Assembly (NCBI GenBank): GCA_963281255.1
Contig: OY725488.1
Coordinates: 2,517,986 to 2,581,985, forward strand
DNA from: Aphrocallistes beatrix
Lineage: Eukaryota > Porifera > Hexactinellida > Sceptrulophora > Aphrocallistidae
Reading direction: 5' to 3'
Length of the DNA: 64,000 bases
Below the pieces are notes generated by a model, which saw only the letters and a program-made list of their open reading frames with translations, made no database searches and was not told the origin of the DNA. The position numbers and the translations under genes were made by a program. Of the stretch, positions 773 through 58,654 are shown piece by piece (the stretch's first letter is position 1; the number at the start of each line of letters is the position of its first letter).

Positions 773-1585
773 TCCCAGTTTAGTTTAACTTTGTGTCCGC
801 TGGAGGCACCATTTGAGCGGCTAGGTACATATAGATTAATTACGGGGTAGATAACATCTCTAAAAACTAAGTACTTCTGTCTGACTTAGTGTTATAATCG
901 ATATCACACGAAAAATCAAAAATCACTTTTTAATGCATAATGATGACGTCATAACAGAGATGAGTAATCATTTTTTGATGTTTGCTGTGATATTAGTGAA
1001 AAATTTTAATATACATAGTCTATAAAAATTTCAGCCCTCTATCACCTAAAATGGCTGATTTAAAGTCGAAAACAGAAATTTCAAAAAATAAAATAGGTGA
1101 CAATGACGTCATAATTCAATGATGAGTCGACATTCATTCAAGTCAGAACCTAGTGGAGCCATAGCCAAAAGACCCGCAAATGCCAAAAATGACCCTTCTG
1201 TACCAGGCAATTTTTCAATCAATTCGTTACATATATATGTATAGTATTAGTAGTATATCCTTATTATTAAAACTCGATTAATGTGTATGTGTGTATGTGT
1301 GTATATATCTATCTATCTGTACGAATTGATTGAAGAAACTGCCAAGTACAGAAAGCTGATTTTTTGGCAACTGGGGGTCTTTTGATTATGGCTCCACTAA
1401 GTTCTGAGCTCAGAGTAAAATGTCGACTCATCATGGAATTATGACATCATTGTCACATTTTTAAAAGTTAAGCAATACAGTTATTCGAGCATAACTCAGC
1501 CATTATAGGAGATAGAAGGCTGAAATTTTAATGGAATCTGTATACTAACATACCTCACATATGATGCAACTATAATAAAAAATGA

Positions 1586-1611
1586 TGACTCATCACTTTG
1601 TTATGACGTCA
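1586..1611. promoter_or_regulatory. AP-1-like and CRE motifs carried by Helitron N1
   Basis: TGACTCA at 1,586-1,592 and the perfect palindrome TGACGTCA at 1,604-1,611. The same pair recurs in most copies of the family, with a second TGACGTCA about 150 bp away (for example 944-951 and 1,104-1,111; 39,136-39,143 and 39,295-39,302). These are consensus sites for bZIP proteins of the CREB/ATF and AP-1 families. Actual binding is not shown by sequence. Confidence 0.5.
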
Positions 1612-1716
1612 TCATTACTCATCAAAATTTTAAAATTTGATAAATTTGGTGATTTTTCGTGCGATATAGATTATAACAGTTGGACAGACGTATTTAGAGA
1701 TGTTATCTCCCTTATA

Positions 1717-2301
1717 TAGGGTGTCTCAAAAGTTCTGCAACAACCAATTTTACTTTGTTAATTTGACTAAGATCACTTGATTGTATTCCAAATTAGCCTC
1801 CATAGATGAAATCTAACACCCTTCTAGCATAGAAATGAGCGCAACTCATTACGCAAAAAACATTTCTTATAAAATTTTAAATAATTACATACCATTTACT
1901 CCAAAATTTAGAGCTCAAAAGTGTCAAGTTTGAAGATCACTATTTTTCTGATGAAATATTACATTAATCACTTTTATATTCTGTAATTGATTCATAATAC
2001 TAAAATAATATCATTACTTTTGATTAATGTAACGAAAATATTCTATAAGAACGCGAGTATTTTAAGTATATACGTCAAATGATATGAGTTTTTTTATTGA
2101 GATAAAAAATATTCTTTACTAGACAACGATATATATGATCCAGCATTGCAAATAAATTGAGAAAAGCAGGCCATTGGGAATGCAAAATAATTCAGATAAT
2201 CCTTCCTATTTTTTGATTAAAAAGAGGTATCGGATATTCGATCTATTTATCTATGTATAATACATCAGCAACATTTGTTGCAGAACTTTTGAGACACCCT
2301 G
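1717..2301. mobile_element. mariner-type MITE inside Helitron
   Basis: Inverted ends of about 25 bp (left tAGGGTGTCTCAAAAG, right CTTTTGAGACACCCTG) with TA duplicated at 1,715-1,716 and 2,302-2,303. Removing it restores the Helitron text CTTATAATTAACC exactly. Length 585 bp, no open frame of note. The AGGGTGTC ends and TA target are typical of mariner. Confidence 0.85.
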
Positions 2302-2675
2302 TAATTAACCAATGTGACCTCAGGCGACTGAAGGGAGTGTCCGCCAGCCGCGCAGCGCAAGCAAGCGAAGCGCGCTTGTACTATATATGTTCATGCATAC
2401 ATACACATATATCATACGCGTTTTAATAGTAAGGATAGAACGTTTGAGAAAGTTGATATTCTTGCTGTTTGCTGGTTACATTTAGTGGTATTAAACTTAT
2501 CCGTGAATTTCAGCTATATAAAGAAATAAGAAATGCATATTGTCTAATAGCCATAATCTTTGTACTAAACAATTATCCCAAGACAAATTTCGTAAGTATT
2601 CATTTATGAGTCCAGATTGTTGTTCAAGAGAAATCAAGTTAATTAAGTAAATGCATTTACTGAATTTATATAGCA

Positions 2676-3290
2676 CAAGCGCGATCGCTTGCTTGAGCTG
2701 CACGGCATGCTGACACTGTGTCCCGCAGAGTCGTCATGGATTCTATCAAAGAGACGGCTGATTGTTTTATGATTCACTACTAAAAAACGTCATTTATCTA
2801 CAGTGAATCATGAATTCAGGACTGGAGAAAAAAAAAATATCCATAATAAAAGAATTCGAAATCTACACCTCTAAGCCCCCATTTCAACCGTTGGAAGATA
2901 GTCTCTTGCTAATTTTTAGAATTTGTTTAAATTATGTATCTATTGTAACCAAAGGTAGACAAATAAATTATCACATAGATTCAAAAAAATGACATTCGAT
3001 CTCTAAACCCCTAAAACCCCATGTCAAATGTTGGATGCCAGTTTCTAGCTTATTTTTGGAATTTGTTTATTACTATATGTATATAATGTAAAGAAAAGTC
3101 AACAAATACTTAGGGCATTCAAACAGTTCTCAACTCACATCATATTTATCTGAAAATATACTATCCGAAATCTATACCCCTATAAACCCCATGTCAACCG
3201 TTGGAAGCAAGTATCTAGCATATTTTTCAAAATTCGTCAAATGGTGTGAAAAATGCACATAAAATTTTTTCTGTGCATTATAATACATTA
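2676..3290 (-). mobile_element. Helitron-like N2 copy with tandem units
   Basis: Left end is the 3' hairpin (CAAGCGCGATCGCTTG). The body carries three imperfect repeats of a 140-170 bp unit marked by ATTCGAAATCTA and CAACCGTTGGAAG (starts near 2,852, 2,991 and 3,161), the same units found in the N2 copy at 24,298. I could not find its 5' end. Confidence 0.5.
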
Positions 3291-3291
3291 A

Positions 3292-3397
3292 AAGCGGGCT
3301 TCGCTTGCTTGCGCTGCTCGGTTGGCGGACACTATGTCCGCCGGAGACGCCCTGAGGTCACATTGATTAATTATAAGGGAGATAACATCTCTAAATA
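3292..3397 (-). mobile_element. Helitron N1 3'-end fragment
   Basis: Holds the three hairpins and the GGGAGATAACATC block, then stops at CTAAATAC where a TTAA-type element begins. The break lies at the same consensus position that received a P element at 14,077 and a hAT element at 55,819. Confidence 0.6.
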
Positions 3398-4010
3398 CCC
3401 TTGCCTGGCGTAAAAAAAACCGGCAAATTTTTTATTGCTAATATAATTGTATTACAGATCGGTCTACTATCTGATAGCACTATTTGGACGGTATTTTTTT
3501 GATTTTTGTGAGTTAAATCCCTAAAGTTTAGCGTTAATAAAAATTGAAAAATTATTGGAAGTTTTTGAATCATTTACCAATTAGTTTTTAACTTATTTGA
3601 TACTTTTTAAATGATATGGACATTAACATTGTTTTGGCACCTTTGGAGATTATATAACACAAATATTTAAAAGAATGGGCAAATAAAATCCAAACAAAAT
3701 AGCTCTATAAGGGAGTTCATTTATTTAATGCTCGGGAAATCGCAAGTTTGATCTCAGAAATTTAGCGAACACTGGGTCAGAAATAAAAATCTGATCGTTT
3801 CAAAAAAAAATTTGCTCGGATCCGACAATTTGTTCTTGAGATATCGCTTATTTTAGGTAAAGTTCGGGCATAATATCCCTCTAGAGAATCAAAAATGGTT
3901 TGGATGTGCCAGTATTTCTTGATGGAGATACCTCCCCACGCTTAACATCTCTCATAGCTCTACTTTCATCGTATGCTGTAAGCAAATCATGTTTTTTCGA
4001 GGGCGGTTCC
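3398..4010. mobile_element. TTAA-flanked element (GGATACCGCCC family), partial
   Basis: Right end CGAGGGCGGTTCC followed by TTAA at 4,011. Left side matches the same family about 25 bp inside its terminus (TTGCCTGGCGTAA), so one tip is missing. Internal sequence is shared with the copies at 6,996 and 33,087 but with a large deletion. Confidence 0.65.
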
Positions 4011-4162
4011 TTAATATTCGGATACTAATAATAAAGTATCTAGTTAATCTAATATATAATATACGATATCCACTTATGAAATACATTTTTTAGATCGGAC
4101 ACTGCGCACAATTTAAGTGTAATTCGTCCGAGAAAATGACCAAGAGTGAGTTAACTAGTGAT

Positions 4163-4675
4163 TTGATTGTTCATGGCTAAGCGCTGCGCGGCTGGCAGAC
4201 ACTTCGTGTCCGCCGGAGGCTCCCTTCGGTCGCCTGGGGTCACAATAGTTAATTATAGGGAAGATAGCAACTCTAAATATGTCTATCCTACTGTTATAAT
4301 CGATATCACTCGAAAAATCACCAAATTTGTCAATTTTAAAATTTTTGATGCGTAATGATTACGTCATAACAAAGTGATGAGTCATCAATTTTTGATGATA
4401 GTTGCAACATATGTGAGGTATGTTAGTATACGGATTCTATTAAAATTTCAACCTTCTATCTCCTATAATGGCTGAGTTATGCTTGGATAAATTTATTGCT
4501 TAACTTAAAAATGTGACAATGACGTCATAATTCCATGATGAGTCGACATTTTGCTCTGAGCTCAGAAATTACTGGAGCCATAGCCAAAAGACTCCCACAT
4601 GCCCAAAATTTGCTTTCTATGACCGGCCGTTTCATCAATCAATTCGTTACTGATATATATATATACGTATATATA
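4163..4675 (-). mobile_element. Helitron N1 copy, 3' tip missing
   Basis: Begins within the 3' hairpin block (GCTGCGCGGCTGG), has the CRE modules and ends in the ATATAT microsatellite where another Helitron in the opposite orientation starts at 4,676. Confidence 0.6.
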
Positions 4676-4739
4676 TCCTCACTATTAAAACTCGATTAAT
4701 GTTTGTTTGTTTGTGTATATAGTAGTTCGTATATATAGA

Positions 4740-4910
4740 CAGTCGATTCCACTTCATATGGTCACTGTTTAAATCGGGTCACTTTTGGCAGGCCCGGAAT
4801 AGCTCTCACACATAGAAGCTAATACAAAATAGTTTCGGTTAATAGGGTTCTCCGCTTAATCGTGGCAAAATGTCCTCTGACCGATGTGACCCTATTAAGC
4901 GGAGTCGACT
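4740..4910. mobile_element. Short Tigger/pogo-like MITE
   Basis: Ends CAGTCGATTCC and GGAGTCGACT are inverted. The text is a shortened copy of the 188-bp element at 17,896-18,083. Internal short repeats read CGCTTAATCG. The TA flank is intact on the right and altered on the left. Confidence 0.7.
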
Positions 4911-4935
4911 ATATAATTATATATACTTATATATA

Positions 4936-5495
4936 CAGGCAGCCCTCGCCGTTCGCGGGTTTGCCATTCGCGGTTTCGACTATTCGCGGAAAATATTTTG
5001 AGTCTTGTATTGCTATTCGCGACTCATTCCCTCGACTATTCGCGGTTTTCGGTACTCTCTTCAGTATTTTCATGGACTACCATAAGTTCATAACGTATCT
5101 ACATATTATTCTGGCAATATAATTTACTGATCCTATTGTCTCTATACTTATAATTTTCTACCTAATAATTACATCATGCCTAAGAGGAAATTGGTGGGTG
5201 ATTGTAATGCTAGACTTTACTATTTCGGTATGGTACTTAGGTTTGCTACTAGAGGATCTATATTTTTCACTTTTCACTCCATTTATTAGCATTTCACTTG
5301 TGCCAGTGTTTGTATCAATACTACAGCTCAAATATTGAATCAATAGCGTATTTAGTAAACTGTATCTAGCATCGTTTTTATAATCTAGGAACGTAACCCC
5401 ACTATTCTCATTGAACTAACGTCTTGCCGTTCGCGATTTTGCCATCCGCGAAAATTCTCTGGAACATAACCCTCGCGAACGGCGAGGGATACCTG
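4936..5495. mobile_element. Tigger-like MITE, CAGG ends
   Basis: Inverted ends CAGGCAGCCCTCGCCGTTCG and its complement ending ATACCTG, with TA on both sides; 560 bp. The CAGG start and TTCGCGG short repeats in each arm are typical of Tigger/pogo non-autonomous elements. No coding sequence. Confidence 0.8.
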
Positions 5496-5988
5496 TATAT
5501 ATATGTAATTAATTGATTGAAGAAACTGCCAGGCGCAGAAAGCTGATTTTTGGCATGTGGAAGTTTTTTGAATCATTACTCTGTTATGTCGTCATCATTA
5601 CGCATAAACATTTTGGAAGCTGACAAATTTGGTAATTTTTCGAGTGATATCGTTTTTAATAATATCACTAAGGTGGACATTTTTAGAGATGTTATCTCTC
5701 TTATAATTAACCAATGTGAACCCAGGCGACCGAAGGGATACTCCGGCAGACACAACGTGTCCGCCAGCCGCGCAGCGCAAGCAAGCGAAGCGCGGTGTAA
5801 TTGTTAAAAGGCATATAATTAGTGACTCAAACTACGCAAGCACTTTGGTAAACATAACAAATGCCAGCGGAGGAAGATTAGAAGCTTTTCTTATCTCAAA
5901 AGATTCAGTTTGGTGATCAGGAAAGAAGTCGATAAATGAAGTGGCAGCTAGTAGCAAGACCAAATACCAATTAGCTATTTTAAATATA

Positions 5989-6493
5989 CAAGCGCGCTTC
6001 GCTTGCTTGCCCTGCGCGGCTGGCGGACACTTCGTGTCCGCCGGAGGCTCCCTTCGGTCGCCTGGGTTCACATTGGTTAATTATAAGGGAGATAACATAT
6101 CTAAATATGTCCATCTTAGTGTTAATTAAAATCGATTTCACTCGAAAAATCTCCAAATTTGTCAATTTAAAAATTTTTGATGCGTAATGATGACGTCATA
6201 ACAAAGTGATGAGTCATCATTTTTTGATGAAAGTCGCATCATATGTGAGGTATATTAGTATACAGATTCTATTAAAATTTCAGCCTTCTATCTCCAATAA
6301 TGGCTGAGTTATGCCCGAATAACTGTGTTGCTTAACTTTTAAAAATGTGACAATGACGTCATAATTCCATGATGAGTCGACATTTTGCTATGAACTCAGA
6401 ACTTACTGGAGCCATAGCCAAAAGACTCTCACATGCCAAAAATCAACCTTCTGCGCCCGGCAGTTTCTTCAATCAATTAATTACATATATATA
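5989..6493 (-). mobile_element. Helitron N1 copy, 5' end lost
   Basis: Complete 3' hairpin end (CAAGCGCGCTTCGCTTG at left), both TGACGTCA motifs, and the TTCTTCAATCAATTAATTAC block before the microsatellite. At 6,494 a Tigger-like MITE end begins and the Helitron 5' terminus is not found beyond it. Confidence 0.65.
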
Positions 6494-6990
6494 CGGGTAT
6501 CCCTCGCCGTTCGCGAGGGTTTGATAAGATGTCTGTCAAAGAGTCGGGAATGTTAGAATGATCAAGGAAATACTGGCAGTACTTGTGTCTTCAAATGCTG
6601 CAGCGCCTCACATTTGGGTGTTCCTTCGATACCTGCGTCTAGCGGTTCAGATCAAGAAGTGGTATCGAGAAACTCATATAGATTAGGGAATTCTTCTTAA
6701 TGTCATTGCTTTGTGTTTTGAAACTAGTAGCAACACTGGAAGTGGCGTGGAGCTTGTAATATGATCGAAAAGATAAAGGAAATGGGACTATTATGGTTGG
6801 CTTGCCGTCAACATAAAAAAATACTTAAATTTGCATAAAAAACAAAGCAAATATTAAGTATACACAAAGTATAGTACTTAAACATAGGAAAACTAAGTAT
6901 TTAAACTAGGTATCGAAATACTCAGTTTGATACCTAGTTTTGTACTTAGTTTTGACCGAATACTAAGGATAAACTAAGTACTGTATTGTA
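6494..6990. other. Tigger-like MITE tip plus unassigned sequence
   Basis: 6,494-6,525 matches one end of the 4,936 MITE (CGGGTATCCCTCGCCG). From 6,526 to about 6,830 is a less repetitive stretch in which I recognise no protein. From about 6,830 it is rich in CTAAGTA/TACTTAG words, continued at 8,680-8,850 on the other side of the TTAA element, so that element seems to have landed in an older AT-rich repeat. Confidence 0.4.
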
Positions 6991-6995
6991 CTTAA

Positions 6996-8675: not shown

Positions 8676-8679
8676 TTAA

Positions 8680-11116: not shown

Positions 11117-11239
11117 GACAGGACTGACTTATTCATGAGAAAAGAAACTGCGACGTTCCCTGTTTATCAGGACAGTCACAAGATTCTTCTGATGATTGAA
11201 TTCAGCCAAAATGGTCAGGGTCATTAGACTGGCAGCACT

Positions 11240-12265: not shown

Positions 12266-12270
12266 TTTAC

Positions 12271-13429: not shown

Positions 13430-13945
13430 AAGCCATAGCCAAAAGACACCCACAAACCAAAAATCAGCTTTCTGTGACAGGCAGTTTCTTCAATCAATTC
13501 GTTAAAGATATATACATAGTATATATACAGTGGAACCTGCATATAACGGCCACCCAAGGGACTGGACAAAATTGGCCGTTATACACAGGTGACCGTTATA
13601 TACAGGTGATTGTCTTAATCCCCAAAAGGTATCAATGTAGTGCAATAAATATAAAGCATTTAGAAATCCATTACTTGAAGTAATTACATTAAACTTGTTT
13701 ATCGTTTGCAACAGGTCCTGTAATAAACACATAAAAAGGTGAAAAGGTGATGGCCGTTATAGACAGGTAGTGGCCGTTATACACAGTTTTAGGGTTGGTA
13801 AGGGACTACAAAAGGGTGGCCACTGGCCGCGTTGAGCAGGTGAACGCTATAGACAGGTGACCGTCATATAGAGTGGCCGATATAGCAGGTCCGACTGTAT
13901 ATATATATATATACATATCCATTAATCGAGTTTTAATATTAAGTA
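13430..13945 (-). mobile_element. Helitron N1 copy, 5' half, with Tigger-like MITE
   Basis: Retains the AGCCATAGCCAAAAGACACC block, the CAATCAATTCGTTA block and the microsatellite, and the 5' terminus (complement of TACTTAATATTAAAAC) at 13,945. It directly abuts the 3' end of the next Helitron at 13,946 with no bases between. The microsatellite is interrupted by the MITE at 13,528-13,897. Confidence 0.6.
13528..13897. mobile_element. Tigger-like MITE with GGCCGTTATA repeats, copy A
   Basis: Ends CAGTGGAACCTGCATATAAC and TATAGCAGGTCCGACTG, TA on both sides; 370 bp. Inside, the word GGCCGTTATA or its variants followed by ACAGGTG recurs near both ends. Related copies lie at 57,257 and 58,178. 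Confidence 0.82.
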
Positions 13946-14076
13946 CAAGCGCGATTCGCTTGCTTGTTAGCACTGCGGGGCTGGCAGACACTTAGTGTCT
14001 GCCGGAGGCGCCCTTTGGGCGCCTGGGATCACATTGGTTAAGTATAAGGGAGATAACATCTCTAAATAGGTCTGTT

Positions 14077-17000
14077 CATAGCCTACTGTAATAATGTCTA
14101 ACAATAAGCTAGGATTTTGAGACTAGGGATGCGTTAATAGCCGGTAATATTTAGGTAACCACAATATTTATAAATAAATATTAGTTATTAAATAACTCAT
14201 TGTTTACATTTGAGTAGGAAGGTAAATAAGAATAATTGAAATTTATTTGTTGTCATTTAATCAGTTCTTTAATTAAATAGCTATTGTGCCAACATACATT
14301 TTCATTTTTTATCAATTTAATAATTAGTATCAGTCTATCAGCTAATCATGCCTAGTAGCTGCTCGGCTCCTGGATGTACGAGTAACTATGATCAGGATGA
14401 TCGAGTTCCAATATTCAGAATGCCAGACAAGCCGCCGGAACTCAGACAGGCGTGGATCAGTGCTCTACATCGTGATGATATAGACACCCTCAAAGTTGTT
14501 AACGTATGCGACAAGCATTTTCGAGACGACGATATAATCAAGACACACAAGGTTCCCAATGGAGACGGGACATTCACTGATGTACCTCGAACCAAACCTA
14601 AGTTGAGAGATGGTGCTATCCCTTGTTTTCTACCTGGATGTCCTTTTACTATTCATCAACTTCTACAACCAAACGGACTCGCCTCTCGTTCGAATCGAAG
14701 GAAGAAGAATTTATTAATCAAACAATTCAGCTGAGCTTGCTATCTGACAGTGAGGGGAAAAGGAAGTATATGATCTGAAAGATAAGTTATTTCTTATTAA
14801 TTTACAAAATAATTGGCTAGTATACCGTGACGATACTACTATTACATTTATTCATCCCAATATGGTCGAACGAAGCATTTCCGTGAATCTGCATTTAGAA
14901 ATAAATTCATCTTTAATTGCATCCGCCTGGCAGCAAGGACAGTCATTCTCCTTATCAATGTATACAATTAATGATGTAAGACAAATTGAGTCTCTTTTGA
15001 ATGAAATTTATTTGAAGCATGCTGCATCAATTCAAGCTAAAAGTAAACACTCTTTCCACATTCCACGAGCTAAAATCACATTAAGGAGGTTGTTAATGAT
15101 TTTGCAAATCAGGAAGAATCAGTAGATAATTGTCCTGATTTAGCCAAGCTCCAATTTATCCTATGTCAATTGGATAATTTGTTCAATCCCAAAAACAGGC
15201 GACGGTATAATTTAATCACACAAATTTTAGCCATTAAAACTCATCTCATTTCACTATCTTGTTATTCTTATCTCCAAAATCTAGATTGTCTCATTTTACT
15301 ACACGTTCATACCTTATACTATAATTTATATTCTTCTTTTGGTCTTGAACATTATTTCTGTGCCTATCTTTCCAAAGCTACTTCATGCTTCAGTCCACAA
15401 GAAAAAAATGTCATCCTCCAAATGGAGGAGATTCATGTGAAATCTGATATTTCATATAAAGGAAGAAAGATTATTGCGCCAAATTTAAATCCTGAAGATC
15501 CCACCAAAACTGTCTTTTCCATTATGGTATCTAGTTTGCATAAGAAATGGTCCTGTATTTCTCGCCTAATTCCATGCCCATCTATCTCAGCTGAAAAAAA
15601 TTTTCCTATTATAAAATCTTGCATCATTGATATTGAAAATTTGGTTTAAGAGTCCAGGTTATTTCAACTGATAACTACCCATTGAATGTAGTAAATCTTT
15701 ATAAATTATTTTCTCCTAAAAAAGAATCATTATTCAAGTACCCATCCTTCCGATGTCAATAGAGTTTTATTCCTTACTTTCGATTTTGTTCACATTTTGA
15801 AGTCTATTCTTAATAATTGGTTGAATCAAAAATATCCTGACAAAACATTTCTTTTTCCAAATTTTGATCATTTTTAGGTTAATTTTACTAAAGATCCTCT
15901 TCAGAACCATTCAGCGTGCTTTCAAGATAAACGTCTTTTATAAATCAGAACGAAATAGTTTAGCCAAACTCGCCCCTCACTTGACTGTGAAATCCTGTTA
16001 CCCTTCGAGTATTGAGCGGCAAAATGAAAAATTGGTTCTAAAGGTAGTCAACGAACTAACGCAAGCTGCACTTGAGATTCAAAATGAATTACGTTGCCAT
16101 AAGTTTCGTAATAGTACATCTGATCTAGTCAGGGTTCTAATTTATCTTTGGAAATTATTTAACATCAACACTCCTTTTAAAGGCATTCGTCTAAACGATA
16201 GCTTCTCGAGCCCTTTAACTTTGAATGACGAACGATTTTCATTTCTCACTCGTATCGTATTTTGGTTGGATGCTTGGCACTCTTTACCAGGTAAACTAGG
16301 AAAATTGAGTAAGCAAACCTACAAAAGTTTTCGACACGCTTGTATTGCTTTACCACGAATCACTAACCATTTAATTCAACACTGTGTTTTTTCCTTCCTG
16401 TTTTCATCTTTTCTACAGACAGATCCATTAAAACATCATTTTGGACTGTATCGTTTAATGTCAGGTTCTAATTACTACATATCTTACCTCCAAGTTCTTG
16501 AGACCGAGCGACGTCTGAAACTCTCTAGCATTTTGAAAATGTTCCCTAATCAATATAGCACATCGTTTGAATCGTTACAGAATTTTATAAAATCATTTTC
16601 ATCGCCTTCACTCACAGGTGATGAAGATGGAAATACTATATTAGATCCTTTTTTTGAAGGAATTGTCCTATTTGCGAAGTATTGTCCTATTTGCGAAATA
16701 TCAAAGTGGAATATTTTGGAGAAGATTATCTTTACTGCTGCCAACTGCTTTCTTGCCAATAAGATTAAGAATTATAATTCACTAGTAATATCGAAGGGAG
16801 TTGAGAAGCGTAAATTGAAAAAGTTTTCTTAAAAATTCTGAATTCTTATTGTTATTTTGTTTAATATTTTATTTACTTATGTAGGTTTTGTTTCATTACC
16901 CGTCAGGAAGTGTGTCAGCAAGCGAGTAGAAGAGTAGACTAATAGACACGCCAATTTAAGTTTGTTAGTGCAACCAAGATTTAGACTGTGTGAATGAGAG

Positions 17001-17895: not shown

Positions 17896-18083
17896 CAGTC
17901 GATTCCGCTTAATAGGGCCACTGTTTAATCGGGTCAACCGCTTAATCGGGCCACTTTTGGCAGGACCGGAATAGCTATCACACATAGAAGCTAATACAAA
18001 ATATTTTCGGTTAATAGGGTTCTCCGCTTACTCGGGTCAAAATGTCCTCTGACCGATGTGATCCTATTAAGCGGAGTCGACTG
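17896..18083. mobile_element. Small Tigger-like MITE, 188 bp
   Basis: CAGTCGATTCCGCTTAATAG at left and CTATTAAGCGGAGTCGACTG at right, TA on both sides. Internal repeats of CGCTTAATCGGG. It sits in the Helitron microsatellite. Confidence 0.85.
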
Positions 18084-18134
18084 TATATATATATATAGTA
18101 TACATACACATTAATCGAGTTTTAATAGTAAGGA

Positions 18135-19327: not shown

Positions 19328-19754
19328 CCGTATTGCTTCGAATAAGCGCCCGGGCGCTTATTTATTTCGTGCACCCTTTAGACCCGGCGCTTATTCAAAC
19401 CGGCGCTTATTCAAGCCCCGGCGCTTATTTTTTTCATTCGCTATTTTGACCCGGCGCTCTTTTTTTTGTTTACTACATTGACTGGCACTTTTATTTTTGC
19501 CACAACTGAGAATGTTAGTTCTATTAAAAAAGGATAATGTAATGTTTCAAAAAGCACTTCTATCTATGCCACTACTGAGAATACTAGTTTGATATGATTT
19601 TCAGAGAACTAAAATGCCCCGGCGTCCGACGCTTATTCGAGCCCCGGCGCTTATTCAAGCCCCGGCGCTTATTTATTTCGCTCACCATTTAGACCCGGCG
19701 CTTATTCAAACCGGCGCTTATTCAAGCCCCCGGCGCTTATTCAGGGAAATACGG
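19328..19754. mobile_element. 427-bp MITE with AAGCGCCGG repeats, copy 1
   Basis: Ends CCGTATTGCTTCGAATAAGC and CAGGGAAATACGG, TA on both sides. Each arm holds several GGCGCTTATTC words. By eye the whole element is identical to the reverse complement of the copy at 56,227-56,653. TA target and non-coding structure suggest a Tc1/mariner or ISL2EU-type non-autonomous element. Confidence 0.85.
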
Positions 19755-19957
19755 TATAGAGGAACTTAAAGAACCAAACAGCATGGATTTATTTCAAAAA
19801 GTTAACTAGATTTGAAATCTCAATGGACGAAAATTTATTTACAAGAGTTTTAATAGACATTGCAATATACCTCGATTGAAGCTGATTGAAAGGTCAAAAT
19901 GTAAATATTTATATTGATTTATAAAATTTGTTATTCGTGAATTAACTATCATTTAAA

Positions 19958-24409: not shown

Positions 24410-24800
24410 AATAATTTCTCATATGGATCCGAAAATATAATATTCGAATTCTACAGCACTAAAAAACCCATGTCAACATTTGGAAGCTAGTCTCTAGCCT
24501 ATTTTTGTAATTTGTCTGCTTTATGCATCTATTGCAAACAAAAGTAAACAAATTGATCATCAAATTCACTCGAAAATATGATATTCGAAATCAACATCCT
24601 TGAAAACCCGAATTCAACCGTTGAAAGCAAGTTATAGCATATTTTTGAGATTTGTTTACTTTATGTATCTATTGCAACCAAAAGTAAACAAATTGATCAT
24701 CAAATTTACTCGAAAAGATGATATTCGAAATCTATCCCCCTGAAAACCCCATGTATACCGTTGGAAGCTAGTCTCTAGCATATTTTACAAAATTCGTCGA
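24410..24800. repeat. Tandem repeat of about 140 bp inside Helitron N2
   Basis: Three successive units, with ATATTCGAA at about 24,440, 24,581 and 24,721. Each unit also carries an ACCGTTGGAAGC-like word and a GTAAACAAATTGATCATC-like word. Confidence 0.7.
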
Positions 24801-31044: not shown

Positions 31045-31860
31045 TTAATAATCACTGGAACTTGGAGGATAGAAAGGTCCTGAAGGGAAACTCTTAGGGT
31101 AGGATGGCGGAGCAAATGGTCCTGTGAATGGATGTATATGAGGCTGTGTCAAGGCAGATAACATCGCTTTTTGGTTTGCGATCATCTCTGGAAGATTCTG
31201 CAACATATCTCCTTTTCTCTGCATATGCGATTCAATTCTCTCTAAACTTGACTCTATTCTTTTGACTACAGTCAACTTCTCTTCTTCCTTCTCTAACAAA
31301 ATCTGTTTAGTATTTGTCAGTTGCATATCTGCAGTTTCGCCAGATAGTGGGTAAGAAAACTTTCTTTGTCGGCTGGGTAGTCCCGCCAGGTTGGGTTGCT
31401 CATCATCCGTTGAAAACAGAGGGCTTGTGACCATTTGATCAGAATCATAAGATACTTGGGAGTGAGTAGGTTCATTCGTGATGTCTACCCCAGAAGCGAT
31501 GCCCTCGAATAATTGTTTCTCTTTGATGCTTTGGATTTTCTCCTCCAGTGGAGTTAGCTCACTTCCAGGGGGACCTCCGCCAGTTTTTTTCATCGAAGCA
31601 ATCTTATCGGCAATTAGTGGTTTATGCTTCCTCAGGAGGTTGGACCACTTTTTGAGAACATCGTCTCGTTTCCTTGATGTGCCATGAAGTGTTGACAATC
31701 CAGACGCGACTTCATCCCAAACTGTGTTCTTCTCTTCGAAATTGATGGAAGCACTCAAACTGCCAAACAGTTGGGATTTTTTCTCTAGAATTAAATCCAC
31801 TAAGGAGCTTATTTCTTCAGAGGAAAAGTTTTTCGCCCTGGGTTTGGATTTTTCTGCCAT
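31045..31860 (-). CDS. Harbinger-associated Myb/SANT-like DNA-binding protein
   Basis: An intact 271-codon frame. Residues about 10-85 form the Myb/SANT-like trihelix: NFSSEEISSLVDLILEKKSQ, then TVWDEVASGLSTLHGTSRKR and VLKKWSNLLRKHK with the conserved Trp residues. A middle acidic and Ser-rich part follows, then a coiled-coil stretch (QILLEKEEEKLTVVKRIESS) and a Pro/Ser/Tyr-rich tail. In Harbinger elements this second protein binds subterminal repeats and brings the transposase to the nucleus and the DNA (family knowledge). It converges with the transposase gene, stops 300 bp apart. It is notable that it is intact while the transposase is broken; chance or recent inactivation would both explain this. 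Confidence 0.82.
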   Translation of the reverse strand: MAEKSKPRAKNFSSEEISSLVDLILEKKSQLFGSLSASINFEEKNTVWDEVASGLSTLHGTSRKRDDVLKKWSNLLRKHKPLIADKIASMKKTGGGPPGSELTPLEEKIQSIKEKQLFEGIASGVDITNEPTHSQVSYDSDQMVTSPLFSTDDEQPNLAGLPSRQRKFSYPLSGETADMQLTNTKQILLEKEEEKLTVVKRIESSLERIESHMQRKGDMLQNLPEMIANQKAMLSALTQPHIHPFTGPFAPPSYPKSFPSGPFYPPSSSDY

Positions 31861-38453: not shown

Positions 38454-39479
38454 TCCTGACTATTAAAACTCAATTAATGTGTATATATATATATGTGTGT
38501 GTATATACACTAAGTAGACAAAAGTATTTGTACATTATGTTATTCCCCATACAAATAGTACTAAATTGGATTTTTCATGAAGGGAAAAGTATTCAAACTC
38601 TAAGAGCTATTAAGAGTCTGATTTAAGATTCGAAATCTTCACATTCGAATTTGTAATAGTTGAAGATTTCTAATGAATTGCTCAACCCAATGGGTAAAAT
38701 TATCAACCTGTGGCACAAGGGGTAGTACATCACCATCATGTCTAGTGATAAAATGGACATATGTGGCACAAGGTGGCAGTGATTGATAATTTGAAAACTT
38801 TGGGAATCAATAATTGATTAGAAATATCCTACAATAACTAATTCGAATGCGAAGATTTCGAATCTGAAACCCGATTAGTTGTATCACTTACTGTTTCAGA
38901 GTTTTAATCTTCATAAATTGACCCATTTAGTATTAAATCAACGTGAGATAATGAAGTGTGCAAATACTTTTGTCCAGGCAGTGTATATATATATATAAAT
39001 ATATATATATATGTAACGAATTGATTGAAGAAACTGGCAGGCATGGAAAGCTGATTTTTTGCATGTGGGAGTCTTTTGGCTATGGCTCCACTAAGTTCTG
39101 CGCTCAGACCAAAATGTCGACTCATCATGAAATTATGACGTCATTGTCACCTTTTTTATAATTAGAAATTTCAGTTTTTCGAACATAACTAAGCCATTTT
39201 AAGTGATAGAAGGCTGAAATTTGAATAGAATATGTATATTAATATATCTCATATGATACAAATATCATCAAAAAAATGACTCATCACTCTGTTTTGACGT
39301 CATCAATACGCATCAAAGTTTTGATGGTTTTTCGTGCGATATCGATTATAGCAGTAGGACAGACGTATTTAGATTTATCTCCTTTTTAATTAATTAATGT
39401 GGCACCAGGCACCCACAGGGTGCCTCCGGCGGACATTGTGTCCGCCAGCCTAGCGGCGCAAGCAAGCGAAGCGCGCTTG
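38454..39479 (+). mobile_element. Helitron N1 copy with MITE in its microsatellite
   Basis: 5' TCCTGACTATTAAAACTC after A, 3' GAAGCGCGCTTG followed by T. The TA/TG microsatellite is split by the Tc1-like MITE at 38,508-38,983. Both CRE palindromes are present at 39,136 and 39,295. Confidence 0.68.
38508..38983. mobile_element. Tc1-like MITE, full length 476 bp
   Basis: CACTAAGTAGACAAAAGTAT at left and TACTTTTGTCCAGGCAGTG at right, TA on both sides. Confidence 0.86.
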
Positions 39480-47900: not shown

Positions 47901-47907
47901 TATAGGG

Positions 47908-50900: not shown

Positions 50901-51035
50901 ACTTCAATTTAATGATGTGAAGTAAACTATGAGTAAATATCAATCACAACAGTTGTTTGATACAATTTCGAGAAAAGAGACTTTTCGTCCGAATTTTGAT
51001 ATTTTAGAAAACTTTAAGAAAAATTCGCGACCTGT
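47908..51035 (-). mobile_element. hAT-like transposon with long inverted arms
   Basis: Left tip CAGTGGTTCTCAACCTATTT. Subterminal arms 47,969-48,180 and 50,826-51,010 are inverted copies (ATCAATTGATCACATTATA-like and TGATGTGAAGT words). The right arm breaks off after TTCGCGACC, so the right tip and any 8-bp duplication are lost. It encloses one minus-strand gene. Confidence 0.65.
48275..50371 (-). pseudogene. hAT-ended element gene, uncharacterised family, frameshifted
   Basis: Successive minus-strand pieces form one protein of about 650-700 residues. N-terminal (50,371-50,040): KLFNQIGYFDELFDVSTCKC with a Cys-rich cluster. Then (to about 49,500) DIFRTSNREVVALVNAALID, KIQRERKKAREF and IMFDGRRDWTL. 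Then EEHISIVAEPGSC and VCDGCATNTG in a shifted frame, where Asp could be catalytic in an RNase H-like fold (inference). Then 49,358-48,957 LDRPLQLMICMLHLNELPFR and DGPTTGPKSFTGEIGKEL. Then SPECRNIVYSVLQNNSYWAH (about 48,770). Finally 48,751-48,275 with CHTQPVERIVQLVSQVLSST and HDERHGQILNTLS. I know this block order from repetitive uncharacterised proteins of aphids, Hydra and others. At least four frame changes or stops, and no splice sites that explain all of them. The hAT assignment rests on the terminal sequence. Confidence 0.68.
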
Positions 51036-51149
51036 AGTTGGATAGTAATCAGGTATTATTTTATGCTAACGTTGTTTACAGACATAGTGGCAACTTTTAG
51101 CAACCGATAATAAAGGATACAAGTGAAAAAATTGGTTTCAGATCACCCT

Positions 51150-52563
51150 AATGTTTACTTCTATACCGCTTAATTTATGTTTCATGTGTTTGATAAGCAA
51201 TGGACTACTTACTATTAGGTAATAATACAACCTGAACTTCTAAATTCAGTGTATTTTGAGTTATGGGTTGATTCAGAGAATGGGACCAAAACACTAAATT
51301 GTCGCATAACTTTATAGTCTGTGAATTTTGAAGTATAAATTGCATTATTACCTAATAGGAAGTAGCCAATTGCCTATCAAATACGATCAAATTTGAAGAC
51401 CTAGTTCTTACAGTTTGCAGGATATGGCTCAAACTGATCAAAATGCTTTACCATAGCAACGTGGGAATGTAACAACATTCCATTGAAAAATTCTAAATTT
51501 TTCAAATCAACTTGTAATAATCTTAGTTCTACACAAAAATTCTACCTTAATAACATTTAGAAGTAGACTTAAAACAGCTTAGAAAATTGCCAAAATCGTG
51601 CTTAAAATGACCTGTTGCGCAATAATATGATGACTAATCGAAATTTTGACAACGGATATATGTACTTTGATGCCATGTTTTATACGCTGGTAATACATTA
51701 TTAATGCCTTTCCTACATGGTTAGCGATTTTAGGCTAATCGTGTATTAATCCATTCGGCTATTACCGCACTCTTGGTTATTTTACTGTGAGGCATTATTA
51801 TAGTAGGCTATGGTTGAACAAATACATGAGCTACCTTAAATCATTAAAAAAGCACAATAGAGCATATGAATGTATTACCAGCATATATAAATATGGTATC
51901 AAAGTACCCATATCAGTTATTAAAATTTAGATTAGTCACCATATGGTTGCGCAATAGGGTATATTTGTGACAAATTTGGTCGTTTAAGGGCACTTCTAAG
52001 TGTTTCTATTATAATTTTTTTTGCATAGAACTGATATGTGAATGGGTTAAGATAAAAAATGTGGATTTTTTCATGGAGTGTTACTACATTCCAGTGTTGC
52101 TATGGAAACGTGTTTTGGTCAGTTGGGGTTATATCTTGAAAACCGCGATAGCTAGACATTTAAATGTAATTCCATTTGATAGCCAATAGAGTATTTCCTA
52201 TTAAGTGATAATATAATTTCGACTTCTAAATACAATGGTTTACGAGATATTCGACAAATGACCAAATGTGGTCAATATGATAAATTGTCTAATAACTCAT
52301 AATTCATTGAATTTAGACACTTCGATTATATCATCACTTAAAATAAAAAATAGTCTATTGGCTATCAAATTGAATTACATTTAAACGCGTCTAGCTATCG
52401 CAGTTTTCAAGATATAACCCCAACTGACCAAACACGTTTCCATAGCAACACTGGAAATGTAGCAACATTCCATGAAAAAAATCCAATTTTTCGTATTAGC
52501 CCATTCACATATCATTTCAATGCAAAAAAATTTATAATAAAAACACTTAAAAGTGCCCTTAAG
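51150..52563. repeat. Large fold-back region
   Basis: Arms 51,985-52,265 and 52,270-52,563 are inverted (AGGGCACTTCTAAGTG against CACTTAAAAGTGCCCTTA; GTTTTGGTCAGTTGGGGTTA against its complement). 51,170-51,610 is a further diverged copy of the same text. At 51,757-51,814 lies a P-element-like terminus (ACTGTGAGGCATTATTATAG then TAGGCTATG). No gene. Confidence 0.6.
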
Positions 52564-52566
52564 GAG

Positions 52567-53216
52567 CAGGCCCTCAAATTTTTAAAAAAATTGCCAAATC
52601 CAAATATATTGCAATCTAGTTTTTATTTCATTCTAGGATGTCTAAATAATCCGATAATGAGATATTTTGTCGTTCCAATGATTATTTTTGTACTTATTGC
52701 CGGTCAAATCTAGTCTTCTACATTCATAATCTACTATTAATTTAAATTTTTAAAATTATCAATTGGCGCACATCCGTACGATTACCCTAACTCAAAAAAT
52801 ATTCACATTTTAAGCACAAACATATTGTAAAAAACACGGAAAACACTCTGATTAAGCTAGTAGCGAATTTCAAATAAAACGAAAGTTTAAGAACTGAATA
52901 TTATTTTGCCTCTTTCCTGATTGAATGGCTTGACAAAATATTTTTCAACATAAAAAAATAGTTAAAATTGAACAAAATAGCTTCGCTACTAGTTCAATCA
53001 ATCGCTAATAATGATAATTCAACAGTTAAATCAGCTTGATCCTAGTCAATAGTGTAGTTATCCCGAACGGCCCAACCACGGATATTGTATAGTATTTAGA
53101 CTTTGAGTGACTATAACTTTATATTTATTCCTAGTTCGAAACTGATATTATGCATTAATTCTTATACTAACTAGTACTATCGATAAACAGTATAACAATG
53201 GTTGAATTAAGACTTT
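52567..53216 (+). mobile_element. Internal piece of Helitron N2
   Basis: Matches 20,093-20,744 over its whole length (for example ACTAGTACTATCGATAAACA and ATCCTAGTCAATAGTGTAG). Both Helitron ends are missing; it ends within the perfect palindrome at 53,205. Confidence 0.7.
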
Positions 53217-53273
53217 GATTTTGGGGTCCTGTCACCTTAAAGGTGACAGGACCCCAAAATCAAAGTCTTAATT
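53205..53273. repeat. Perfect 69-nt palindrome (34-bp arms, 1-nt centre)
   Basis: The left arm starts AATTAAGACTTTGATTTTGG and the right arm is its exact complement ending AATCAAAGTCTTAATT, with a single A at 53,239. The outer 16 bases of the left arm are ordinary Helitron N2 text, as at 20,737; the inner part (GGGGTCCTGTCACC) is not in that copy. Confidence 0.95.
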
Positions 53274-53279
53274 ACCCTG

Positions 53280-53511
53280 AAAAGAACCAAATTTGTCACA
53301 AATATACCCTATTGCGCAACCATATGGTGATTAATTTAAATTTTAACAACGAAAATGGGTACTTTGGAACCATATTTATATATGCTGATAATACATTCCT
53401 ATGCTCTATTGTGCTTTGTTAATGATTTAGTGCAGCTCATGTATTGGTTCAACTATCTTCTAACGCATCCCTAGTCAAGTTACTATGAGGCCTTATATAC
53501 AGTAGGCTATG
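53280..53511. repeat. Inverted partner of 51,815-51,990 ending in a P-like tip
   Basis: ACCAAATTTGTCACAAATAT, then GCGCAACCATATGGTGA and GGAACCATATTTATATATGC run back through the sequence after 51,815. It ends with TATATACAGTAGGCTATG at 53,511, like the P-element tip at 17,266. Confidence 0.6.
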
Positions 53512-53974
53512 ACTTATGGCATAAAGAATGGGGAGAGTGATTTTCTCACTATGCTTCCGCTAGATAGAAGACACGCTGCGGCTTTATGGCTCCTTTTTCG
53601 GGTGTTGCGATGAAACAATACTAAACGAATTTAAGACACGCTTCATAAATGTATCATGCTGAAAAAGGAGATTAGAAGTGAAAATTTAGAGAAATAAAAC
53701 AATACACGAGCATTCTTGTTACTATTATTATAATATTAATTATGGGAAGTTGAAATTGGTAGCACTCATTTAAAAGTTTGCGTTCATACTATTTTATTCC
53801 AGACGGGTATCGTTTCCCCCAGAAAAACTGGAATTACCAACGATGGAGATAAGTTACCCTCAATTCCCAAACACTGAAATAAACACCTATAAAGTACAAT
53901 TGAAATCTGATATAAGTACATAGTTTCAAAATTAATATGGGACATAACTTTAGCAATTTGCAAAACTAAAAAAA
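53512..53974. other. Unassigned
   Basis: No gene or repeat recognised between the P-like tip and the TTAA element. Confidence 0.3.
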
Positions 53975-55232
53975 TTGTAAATTTTATCGGTGTCCGAAAA
54001 AAATGGCCAAAAAACGGCAAAATGTCCGTTTTTTGGGGGGAAATCAGGAATAAAATCACCAAGTTATAAAATATCGAAAATAAAGTGGTCCTACGTTCAT
54101 CGCCTAATGATATGGAACAACTCTTGAAAATTTCAAACCTCTATCTCAAACCAAATTTGAGTTAAAATTCGGGAAAGACGGTCTTTTGAAATTTTGAAGT
54201 CCCGAGATATAGAGATTTTAAGTTTTGATGTTCAGAAGAATGTAAAATGAGTTATTAAAAATGAACAAAAGCATTCACAGACATTATTCGCATTTATACT
54301 GCTGATTTAACCCTACTTGGACTTGGGGTCAAAGGTATAAATAGAAAATTCCCACTTTCATTTTCACTTTCAGTTCACTTTCAATTAACTTTCACTTTCA
54401 CTTCAACATTCCAAGTCCAATTAGGGTTAAAGTATATTCGAACCAAAAATTTACATGATATAGCAAGAGTACCCTGAAAATCCACAAATTTCCTTGAGGC
54501 CCCTAACCCCGAATATTTCAAAATAATTATCAAAAGTTCTCCAATTTTGCTGTACACATTATTAGCAATTGTATTCATTATTTAGACAATTGTATTCATT
54601 ATTTAGCATAATAACCACATTTGGATACATATTTAATGATTAGATTCGCCATTTTCTAATATATTCAAAGTTCCCCATAGAATTTGTATTACAATTAAAT
54701 CAATGATAAGTCGAGAAATATTTATTTTTTGACAAAGGATTGTTTGAGGAACCTATATACTTTCGCATTAATCCTTTCATTTAAGTTTATAATTGATTAT
54801 ATATCTTCAATAGTTTTTAAGATATGACATCGGCCTCTTTCGGGACCATAGAGAGATATTATGCCCGAACTTTGTCTCTAATATGCGATATATCACGAAC
54901 AAATGGTCGGATCCGAACAAACTTTTTTGAAACGATCAGAATTTTATTTCTGATCCAATGATCGCTAAATATCTGATATCAAACAGGCGATTTCCCGAGC
55001 ATTATATAAATGAACTCCCACTCCCTTATAGAGCTATTTTGTTTGGATTTTATTTGGCCATTCTTCTAAATCTTTGTGTTATATAATCTCCAAAGGTGCC
55101 AAATTACCGTCCAACTATACCGTCCAACTAGTACTATCAGATGGTAGACCACTCAGTAATACAATGATATTAACAATAAAAATTTTTGCCGTTTTTTCTT
55201 ACGCCAGGCAAAGTTTTTCGAGGGAGGTATCC
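53975..55232. mobile_element. TTAA-flanked element, left part missing
   Basis: The body follows the 6,996 copy from AAATTGTAAATTTTAT to the end CGAGGGAGGTATCC, followed by TTAA. A short CACTTTCA-rich insertion at 54,318-54,428, flanked by AACCCTA and TAGGGTTA words, is not in other copies. Confidence 0.65.
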
Positions 55233-55307
55233 TTAAATTAGCAACTCCTAGTACCCTGGATGACACTTCATGTTCCTACTGCCTCATTAATCCCTGCTTA
55301 TGCTATA

Positions 55308-55699
55308 CAAGCGCGCTTCGCTTGCATGCGCTATGCGGCTGGCGGGCACTTTGTGCACGCCAGAGGCTTCTTTTAGACGCCTAGTCTCACATAAATTAAT
55401 ATTAAGGTAAATGACATCTCTAAATATGTTTGTCTGATGATAGTTGGATGATTTTTGAGATACATTAATATACACATTCTATTAAAATTTCAGCCTTCTA
55501 TAACATAAATGGCTGAGCTATAGTCGAAAAACTGAAATTACTAATTCTAAAAAAAGGGACAATGACGTCATTAATCAATGATGAGTCGACATTTTCATCT
55601 GAGGTCAGAACATAGTGGCGCCATAGCCAAAAGACACCGCGATACAAAAAATCAGCTTTATGTGCCTTGTAGTTTCTTTAATCAATTCGTTATAAATAT
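55308..55699 (-). mobile_element. Helitron N1 copy, internally deleted, 5' end lost
   Basis: 3' hairpin CAAGCGCGCTTCGCTTG at left; one TGACGTCA near 55,564; it ends in the microsatellite where the next Helitron starts at 55,704. Confidence 0.6.
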
Positions 55700-55818
55700 A
55701 TAACAAGCGCACTTCGCTTGCTTGTGCTGCGAGGCTGGCGGACAGTTTGTGTCCGCCTGAGGCGCCTGGGTCACATTGATTAATTATAAGGGAGATAGCA
55801 TCTCTAAATACGTCTGTC

Positions 55819-56878
55819 CAGTGGCGTACCGTGGGGGGGGGCGGGGGGGCGGCCCGCCCCGGGCGGCACTTCAAGGGGGCGGCAAATTGCATTTACAACT
55901 TTAAATTAAATTCTCCTATTGCATGTAGAAATCCAGTGTTGAATTAAATTGATCAAAGTTTATTGTCTGTTGACAATTTGCACTATTGACAATTCACAAA
56001 TAACAATTGATAACTGCACTTCTATGATTAAGAATCCCTCTAAATCAATTGTAATGATTTCAATTTCTGAAATAATGAAAACATATATTAGTATACAAAC
56101 CACAACCTTACTGTAATAACATAATAGTCATATACTTGTAGAAGTGATAAAATTAACTGTAAGAAATATAAATGACACTATTAAGTCGCATTTATAGATT
56201 TCTTGCGTGTTTTAATAAATTAACTACCGTATTTCCCTGAATAAGCGCCGGGGGCTTGAATAAGCGCCGGTTTGAATAAGCGCCGGGTCTAAATGGTGAG
56301 CGAAATAAATAAGCGCCGGGGCTTGAATAAGCGCCGGGGCTCGAATAAGCGTCGGACGCCGGGGCATTTTAGTTCTCTGAAAATCATATCAAACTAGTAT
56401 TCTCAGTAGTGGCATAGATAGAAGTGCTTTTTGAAACATTACATTATCCTTTTTTAATAGAACTAACATTCTCAGTTGTGGCAAAAATAAAAGTGCCAGT
56501 CAATGTAGTAAACAAAAAAAAGAGCGCCGGGTCAAAATAGCGAATGAAAAAAATAAGCGCCGGGGCTTGAATAAGCGCCGGTTTGAATAAGCGCCGGGTC
56601 TAAAGGGTGCACGAAATAAATAAGCGCCCGGGCGCTTATTCGAAGCAATACGGTATTCAGATTTCATCATAAAATTGCAATTTCAAATAATGAGCAGCAT
56701 TGAAAGCGAGAAGAACTATTGTTAACCATTTGTAGCGAGTTATTAGAATATTGTTAAGAATAAAGCAAATAGGAAATTGAATCGCGAAATTATAATTTAA
56801 ATAATTAACACTTAGGAGCGGCAACGCGGCATTCTAAAATTCCCGCCCCGGGCGGCATTTGGTCACGGTACGCCACTG
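55819..56878. mobile_element. hAT MITE with perfect 8-bp duplication
   Basis: CAGTGGCGTACCGTG at left and CACGGTACGCCACTG at right; CGTCTGTC duplicated exactly at 55,811-55,818 and 56,879-56,886. 1,060 bp including the 427-bp MITE inserted at 56,227. G/C-rich tips (CCCGCCCCGGGCGG) and AT-rich middle. No gene. Confidence 0.92.
56227..56653. mobile_element. 427-bp MITE with AAGCGCCGG repeats, copy 2
   Basis: TA on both sides; reverse complement of the 19,328 copy without a difference that I can see, including the lengths of the A and T runs. It lies inside the hAT MITE. Confidence 0.87.
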
Positions 56879-57256
56879 CGTCTGTCCTACTGTTATAATC
56901 GATTTCGCACGAAAAATCACCAAATTTGTCAATTTTTAAAATTTTGATGCGTAATATGACGTCATAACAAATTGATGAGTCATCATTTTTTGATGATAGT
57001 TACATCATAAGTGAGGTCTATTAATATGCACACTCTATTTAAATTTCAGCCAGCTAACTCTTAAAATGGCTGAGTTATAGTTGAAAAACTGAAATTTCTA
57101 ATTATATAAAAAGTGACAATGACGTCATAATTCCATGATGCCGACATTTTCGTCTCATCTCAGAACTTAGTAGAGCAATAGCCAAAAAAACTCCCACATG
57201 CCTAAAATCAGTTTCCTGCGCCTGGCAGTTTCTTCAATCAATTCGTTATATATATA

Positions 57257-57674
57257 CAGTGGAATATGTATATAACGGCCACCTAAGGGACTGGACAAAA
57301 TTGGCCGTTATACACAGGTGACCGTTATATACAGGTGATTGTCTTAATCCCCAAAAGGAATCAACGTAGTGCAATAAATATCAAGGTTTTAGAAATCCAT
57401 TACTTGAAGTAATTACATGAAACTTGTTTATCGTTCGTAACAGGTCCTATAATAAACACATAAAAAGGTGATGACAATAGACAGGAAATGGCCGTTATAG
57501 ACAGGTGATGGCCGTTATACACAGTTTTATGGTCAGTTAGGGACTACAAACGGGTGGCCGCTGGCCGCGTTGAGCAGGTAACCGCTATATACAGGTTCAA
57601 TATTATGGCATTTCGGACGGGACTGTTCATTGGTGACCGCTATAGACAGGTGACCGTTATAGCAAGTTCGACTG
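57257..57674. mobile_element. Tigger-like MITE with GGCCGTTATA repeats, copy B
   Basis: CAGTGGAATATGTATATAAC at left and TATAGCAAGTTCGACTG at right, TA on both sides, 418 bp. Confidence 0.82.
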
Positions 57675-57688
57675 TATATATATATATA

Positions 57689-58124
57689 TAGTGGAAACCG
57701 GTTATAAGAACATCGTTGGGAGTTGAAAAAATGTTCTTATAACAGATATGTTTATATAACAGTATTTCGGTTATAAGAACATGTTCTTATAACCGACATA
57801 AGAAGTCAGATATGTCGGTTATAAGAACATATTTTGTTCTTTTTATCGGCTATAAGATTGGTCCCTAACCTAATAAATAGCAGTAAGCTCGAAAAAGTAA
57901 GCTAGGTAGAAGATTCAGGAGTCAGAAATTACAAAATTGGTTGTGTATGAATGAAAAATGAGAACTTGACTACTAATAGTTCTATAAATTATTGATAGAA
58001 TATTCTTATAACCGATATTTGATGTTCTTATAACTGGTTCTGTTTAAATAGTAATGAATAGAAAAGAATCCGTTCCCAAATAAATGGTTCTTATAACCGG
58101 TGTTCTTATAACCGATATCCACTG
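57689..58124. mobile_element. MITE with GGTTATAAGAACA repeats
   Basis: Left tAGTGGAAACCGGTTATAAG and right CTTATAACCGATATCCACTG are inverted; TA on both sides; 436 bp. GTTCTTATAAC words are repeated throughout both arms. A Tigger-like plan with different words from its neighbours. Confidence 0.8.
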
Positions 58125-58177
58125 TATGTAGGATAAGTAAGAGATTCGTATTCAATAATAGTTGATGGTTATGTATA

Positions 58178-58620
58178 CAGTGGAACCTGTATATAACGGC
58201 CACCCAAGGGACTGGACAAAATTGGCCGTTATACACAGGTGGCCGTTATATACAGGTGATTGTCTTAATCCCCAAAAGGTATCAACGTAGTGAAATGAAT
58301 ATCAAGCTTTTAGAAATCTATTACTTGAAGTAATATAATGAAACTTGTTTATCGTTCGTAACAGGTTCTGTCATAAACACATAAAAGGTGAAAAAGGTGA
58401 TGGTCGTTATAGACAGGTAGTGACCATTATAGACATATAATGGCCGTTATACACAGTTTTGGGTCAGTAAGGGACTGCAAATGGGTGGCCGCTGGCCGCG
58501 TTGAGCAGGTGACCGCTATACACAGGGTCAATATTATGGAATTTCGGACGGGACTGTTCAATGGTGGCCGCTATAGACAGGTGACCGTTTACAGAGTGGC
58601 CGTTATAGCAGGTTCGACTG
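58178..58620. mobile_element. Tigger-like MITE with GGCCGTTATA repeats, copy C
   Basis: CAGTGGAACCTGTATATAAC at left and TATAGCAGGTTCGACTG at right, TA on both sides, 443 bp. Closest to copy B. Confidence 0.84.
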
Positions 58621-58654
58621 TATATATATATTAATCGAGTTTTAATAGTAAGGA

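Follow-up and report, generated by a model that had tools for sequence, protein, structure and literature searches.

A short Helitron derivative, which we call N1, is very probably a major supplier of ordinary TA targets to other transposons: insertion into its TA tracts is about as frequent as into TA tracts elsewhere, and nests of elements would arise by supply. The window analysed here, a stretch of 64,000 nucleotides, comes from a eukaryote genome assembled into 28 contigs totalling 100.5 Mb. Direct observation covers the structure and copy number of N1, the pooled equality of insertion rates, the share of TA tracts that N1 provides, and the two orientations and lack of grouping of the MITEs that it bears.

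Structure and copy number of N1

N1 begins with TCCTTACTATTAAAACTCGATTAATG and passes, about 26 bases inside its 5' end, into a simple repeat (TG, TTTG and TTTA units, then TA), which is followed by ACGAATTGATTGAAGAAACTGCC, a body of about 460 bp and the terminus GCGCAAGCAAGCGAAGCGCGCTTG. Flank and start read A|TCC in most of the 5' ends listed, and the 3' terminus reads CTTG|T in most of the 3' ends listed, placing the insertion site between A and T. The 5' TC is a Helitron feature, and so are the unlike termini, which lack inverted terminal repeats, and the two stem-loops at the 3' end (z −3.6 and −3.2). The canonical Helitron 3' CTRR is not found in N1, whose terminus is CTTG. We classify this short, non-autonomous element as a Helitron derivative because of its Rep/PIF1 relatives, despite the CTTG; its 3' end is non-canonical and places it outside the TC...CTRR form.

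A genome-wide pattern count found 6,375 N1 5' ends in the 100.5 Mb, compared to a single control match. With a median uninterrupted repeat of 24 nt (n = 24 cases), the N1 repeats of these copies total about 0.15% of the genome. Five 10-kb stretches across the genome contained three N1 5' ends, too few for a test of density. A PET-LIM gene is also present and points to an animal.

Autonomous relatives

The Helitron_like_N domain has 106 matches in the genome, fragments counted. In two loci, L159 and L161, it occurs together with PIF1, which is the Rep/helicase combination of an autonomous partner. L159 belongs with L160 and L162 to a family that starts with TCTTATATATTAAAACTC, carries a T/TTTG run at the position of the N1 repeat and continues with CGAATTGATTGAAGAA as in N1. 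This common 5' start was seen in three copies with unlike upstream DNA, and the 3' end, GCAGCGCAAGCAAGCGAAGCGC(A/G)CTTG before T, in two (L162 with L164, and L032). L161 is approximately 69% identical to this family across some 4 kb. Its 1,959-aa frame contains both Helitron_like_N and PIF1; the frame is preceded by an N1 5' end, which includes a short TA tract, and followed by an N1 3' end. The autonomous relatives thus have a simple repeat at the same place as N1.

Judged from these sequences, the ends of N1 are common to a Rep/PIF1 Helitron family of the same genome. L161, a single copy, is the likely parent of N1. The N1-like stretch and the N1 3' end of L161 could partly be separate N1 insertions; for this reason, and because L161 is a single copy, we claim ends shared with the Rep/PIF1 family and not descent from L161. 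The type of repeat varies in the lineage, being TA in N1 and L161 and a T/TTTG run at the same place in the second autonomous family.

MITEs in the N1 repeats of the window

Seven N1 5' ends with at most three mismatches occur in the window (0.01 expected in shuffles), together with seven exact TATACAGTSGA MITE ends (0.04 expected); chance does not account for them. At five of the seven N1 5' ends, the neighboring repeat contains MITEs; these are the ends at 4,682 (MITEs at 4,740 and 4,936), 13,920 (13,528), 18,109 (17,896), 38,460 (38,508) and 58,629 (57,257, 57,689 and 58,178). At the remaining two N1 5' ends, 1,264 and 12,240, the repeat is uninterrupted. The MITEs in N1 repeats represent at least five families, A to E, which, from their end sequences, we take to be of the Tc1/mariner type.

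The first copy, delimited by BLAST and reading, lies on the minus strand at 788–2438 (body 788–1227, repeat to 1257, 5' end 2417–2437) and is split by a plus-strand N1 at 1258–2378, whose body in turn contains a G-type MITE (1,719–2,299). The Helitron that the first-pass annotation had placed in the repeat of another Helitron at 1,258 is therefore an N1(+) inside the repeat of an N1(−). The N1(+) copy at 4675–5798 harbors in its repeat a family A MITE (4740–4911, plus strand, CAGTCGA...TCGACTA), which has GA instead of TA as left flank and a changed last base at its right end, and a family B MITE (4936–5495, plus strand, beginning CAGGCAGCCCTCGCCGTTCGCG). Next to the N1(−) body at 5993–6478, the repeat contains the truncated end of a B-type MITE (6494–6521, plus strand), a ninth element that was missing from the earlier list. 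A family C MITE (13528–13897, plus strand) interrupts an N1(−) repeat; N1 flank precedes it from 13,431, and the N1 5' end follows at 13,920–13,939. A further family A MITE (17896–18083, plus strand) has an N1 5' end to its right (18,109–18,128) and on its other side GGAGCACCCTAATA, which in L117, and in a changed form in L081, likewise precedes a TA run. In the N1(+) copy at 38454–39479, the repeat carries a family E MITE (38508–38983, plus strand, CACT...GTCCAGGCAGTG). Finally, the N1(−) copy at 56879–58655 has three plus-strand MITEs between its body (56,879–57,246) and its 5' end (58,629–58,655): family C at 57257–57674, family D at 57689–58124 (beginning TAGTGGAAACCGGTTATAAGAAC, with T instead of C as first base) and family C again at 58178–58620.

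All eight positions listed in the first-pass annotation as TA-duplicating elements inside N1 repeats proved to be genuine MITEs flanked by TA and located within or next to the simple repeat of N1 copies, although they are spread over five copies and the one at 17,896 has N1 on one side only. Duplication of TA cannot be proved within a TA run, and we infer it from family C copies in other DNA, which have TA on both sides in five non-repeat loci (L003, L004, L022, L025, and L028).

Genome-wide use of TA runs

Patterns were counted on both strands of the whole genome, a run being defined as (TA)≥6 followed by A, C or G and a MITE junction as (TA)≥6 followed by CAGTSGA, with which families A, C and D begin; family E lies outside this tally. 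The genome contains 8,971 run ends, of which 474 have an N1 5' anchor at most 30 bases before the run and 2,098 an N1 3' anchor. N1 does disperse TA targets, as had been proposed: together these 2,572 anchored ends amount to a share of at least 29%, compared to 25–32 of 58 in a read sample described below. Strict anchors detect about half of the N1-borne tracts in that sample, and the true N1 share of (TA)≥6 tracts is nearer half than a third. Reversing the run-end pattern as a control gave 6,779 matches, which do not measure chance: TA runs remain TA runs when reversed, and the figure records only the run ends in the opposite phase.

Other, unrelated transposons use these tracts. MITE junctions on (TA)≥6 number 450, with no match in the reversed control, and 123 of them are N1-anchored (42 at the 5' and 81 at the 3' anchor). 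A MITE thus adjoins 123 of 2,572 N1-anchored run ends (4.8%) and 327 of the 6,399 others (5.1%). The pooled ratio is 0.94 (0.76–1.15; Fisher P = 0.56), with runs matched by minimum and not exact length and with the unanchored set still diluted by N1 copies that escaped recognition, a bias of the ratio towards 1. N1 uses its own tracts as well: among 420 N1 3' ends on (TA)≥6 runs, 80, counted with a pattern one letter shorter, are N1-3'-anchored, i.e., 80 of 2,098 runs with the N1 3' anchor compared to 340 of 6,873 others (ratio 0.77, 0.61–0.98). On the pooled count, neither the A/C/D MITEs nor N1 favor N1-borne tracts. The marked excess within N1 that a special landing pad predicts is not supported: pooled over both anchors, N1-borne tracts and other (TA)≥6 runs are used at equal rates, the outcome that had been named as refuting such a pad.

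The two anchors differ when taken separately. The 5' anchor alone shows a 1.85-fold excess (42/474, P = 0.0003) and the 3' anchor alone a deficit (81/2,098, ratio 0.72, P = 0.005); in the listed 3'-anchored runs, the tract mostly begins with ACAGATATA or ACATATATA. We attribute this split to phase: seen from the 5' side, an uninterrupted N1 run finishes with T and escapes the count, whereas insertions enter it from either side, so that balance is reached only by pooling. This account is an argument from run phase, and the balance of the pooled figure rests on it.

For the read sample, 60 control run ends were drawn from 93 listed ones, which all lie within the first 2.7 Mb of contig 1, and 60 MITE junctions from 71 listed ones on contigs 1 and 2, some being the two ends of one MITE; cases from the window itself were left out of both sets. 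Two control run ends were MITE junctions and were dropped (n = 58). With tolerant matching, an N1 flank lay on the left of 38/60 MITE junctions compared to 25/58 controls (P = 0.04) and on either side of 49/60 compared to 32/58 (P = 0.003), the latter by a rule that reaches further in the MITE set; matches to N1 in the wrong orientation occurred in 3/60 and 4/58, respectively. Strict anchors were skewed in this sample (23/60 MITE junctions, 13/58 controls) and not genome-wide (27.3% of MITE junctions, 28.7% of run ends), and we prefer the exhaustive count for this reason. The N1 excess of the sample counts against a reading by supply only; we ascribe it to the part of the genome that was sampled. 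Family E was the commonest neighbor of TA runs in the sample.

These results bear on the possibility that N1 is specially attractive, with flanking sequence, open chromatin or another feature beyond the TA tract drawing MITEs to it. Occupied repeats at five of seven N1 5' ends in the window, the excess at the 5' anchor and the left-flank excess of the local sample all point that way, but both genome-wide ratios, the pooled one for MITEs and that for the ends of N1 itself, argue against it. Furthermore, of the 60 sampled runs, 22 adjoin a recognised transposon end (9 of the 33 N1-borne runs and 13 of the 27 others), and the window is thus richer than usual. We consider a special attraction of N1 unlikely. 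The target is presumably the TA tract, whatever element carries it.

Possible growth of TA tracts and apparent independence of insertions

If TA tracts grew after insertion, by slippage at the TA duplication, the tract would partly be a consequence of the MITE. Such slippage is described for maize TAFTA elements in the available text of PMC5907723, and in L086 a family A MITE stands beside a run of 27 TA in DNA that is not recognisable as N1. MITE-free N1 copies nevertheless already have TA tracts, as the 24 uninterrupted repeats illustrate, and only 81 of the 2,098 3'-anchored run ends adjoin a MITE. The median N1 run length is eight with or without a MITE, and L161 already carries a TA tract. 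Tract growth as the source of the association is accordingly very unlikely.

The family C set (INDEPENDENCE) comprises 30 fetched copies, which rank highest among 40 scored out of 754 candidates and include the query copy from the window. An inward N1 flank within 100 bp was found by rule in 12 of the 30, query copy included, and in 13 when one judged by eye is added. About 40% of the fetched copies therefore lie in N1 repeats, which make up about 0.15% of the genome; this is a large enrichment over random DNA, and the TA tract accounts for it. With the MITE sample added and places deduplicated (n = 24), family C stands in the same orientation as N1 in 10 cases and in the opposite orientation in 11, three being mixed or unclear. 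The N1-borne copies do not group by sequence (14 same-label nearest neighbors compared to 14.7 expected, P = 0.67), and the insertions of family C into N1 look independent.

Helitrons are copied whole, and some N1-to-MITE junction strings recur among the listed 5'-anchored junctions, as they would if a few N1 copies had acquired a MITE and then spread as composites, but the two orientations, the lack of grouping and the presence of at least five MITE families in N1 repeats make such hitchhiking extremely improbable. The sole suspected composite, shared by L085 and L136, was rejected, since the sequence common to both loci is a single MITE whose internal repeat had confounded the search for ends.

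Supply of targets and proposed formation of nests

The earlier interpretation is partly supported, in that its supply half stands and the special N1 landing pad does not. In the supply model that we favor, each new N1 copy would deposit a (TA)n tract, and at least five TA-flanked MITE families as well as N1 would target TA tracts, whether N1-borne or not, at about equal rates. The transposases would recognise the TA tract itself; TA-type transposases may favor TA runs for their many targets and flexible DNA, and the insertion of Helitrons between A and T would make such tracts suitable for N1 too. As a large part of the TA tracts comes from N1, insertions would pile up there and nests would form. 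Each N1 landing in a tract would bring another tract, so that growth of nests by feedback is plausible.

A wider reading is that the 5' simple repeat is a kept, functional part of the Helitron lineage, making the Helitron the main source of an insertion haven shared by at least six families including itself, with little harm to the host and nests growing by positive feedback. We put this forward tentatively and regard it as rather doubtful.

N1 is an example, open to counting, of a transposon that creates targets for other elements, with approximately 6,400 dispersed carriers of TA tracts and about equal rates of use in and outside the carrier. It separates carrier preference from target supply, two ideas that are often merged, and suggests that nests can be built by supply alone. 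It is also a warning that nests in one window alone do not show a carrier to be attractive.

Relation to known systems

Microsatellites have already been described as "landing pads" or "runways" for transposons (PMC12477314, citing Kejnovsky 2013, PMC3547029), and PMC3547029 cites a Sleeping Beauty (Tc1/mariner) bias in favor of microsatellites. Both papers share with our analysis the general notion of microsatellites as recipients of transposons, but their accessible parts name no particular carrier element and, unlike our analysis of N1, do not compare carrier-borne with other tracts. A literature search, with most subscription journals outside its scope, found no paper on a Helitron supplying TA tracts to other families. 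Microsatellite targets, TA-targeting elements and arrays, and rolling-circle elements carrying microsatellites are thus known; to judge from this search, a TA-carrying Helitron as main supplier is new.

As here, several families are joined through TA and other microsatellites into arrays in the SaTar elements of guayule and rice (PMC5907723). As far as the accessible text describes them, these are Mu-like plant elements that never interrupt one another, whereas here a Helitron brings the tract, TA-flanked MITEs and N1 itself enter it, and the G-type MITE lies inside an N1 body. The 8–11 bp target duplication given for SaTar in that text also differs from family C, whose copies outside repeats have TA only. 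MuTAnT (PMC4486113) and Micron of rice target TA microsatellites as the MITEs described here do; in the portions of the sources at hand, they appear as single targeting families, and the tracts do not originate from another transposon, unlike those of N1.

Known counterparts of N1 itself are DINE-1/HINE elements, which the available sections of PMC4067079 and PMC2374699 describe as abundant non-autonomous rolling-circle elements with an internal microsatellite. They have subterminal inverted repeats, and the TT insertion reported for Helentron/HINE elements in PMC4067079 is not seen in N1, which is flanked by A|T and carries a TA-rich repeat that is used by other elements.

An insertion in an N1 body, and adjoining N1 copies

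The N1 elements are short non-autonomous Helitron derivatives with a TA-rich simple repeat just inside the 5' end. The MITE at 1719-2299 of the window, which has the ends GGGTGTCTCAAAAGTTCTGCAAC and TA on its left flank, lies in the body of its N1 host and not in the repeat. At window positions 13943-13950, and likewise at a second locus fetched from the same genome (L016), two N1 copies are arranged head to tail, the 3' end of one being directly followed by the 5' end of the next. This arrangement may have arisen by rolling-circle read-through or by insertion at TA. In addition to its Helitron domains, the protein of the N1-type autonomous Helitron (L161, 1224-7100) has STPR peptide repeats, which were not found in the protein of L159, a copy of the related autonomous family.

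Other elements in the window

A 426-bp element with AATAAGCGCCGG repeats occurs as two inverted copies (19331-19756 and 56225-56650). Since the copies are 100% identical while lying ~37 kb apart, the pair is probably of recent origin. The stretch 14348-16832, where one frame encodes a THAP domain and a separate one gives a weak match to a TNP-like RNase H, is the remnant of a P-element-like transposon. Open frames encode a Myb/SANT-like DNA-binding domain (31045-31860) and PET and LIM domains (59834-61054), the latter frame pointing to an animal host, and a 140-bp unit is tandemly repeated in 2.5 copies, 81% alike, at 24430-24786.
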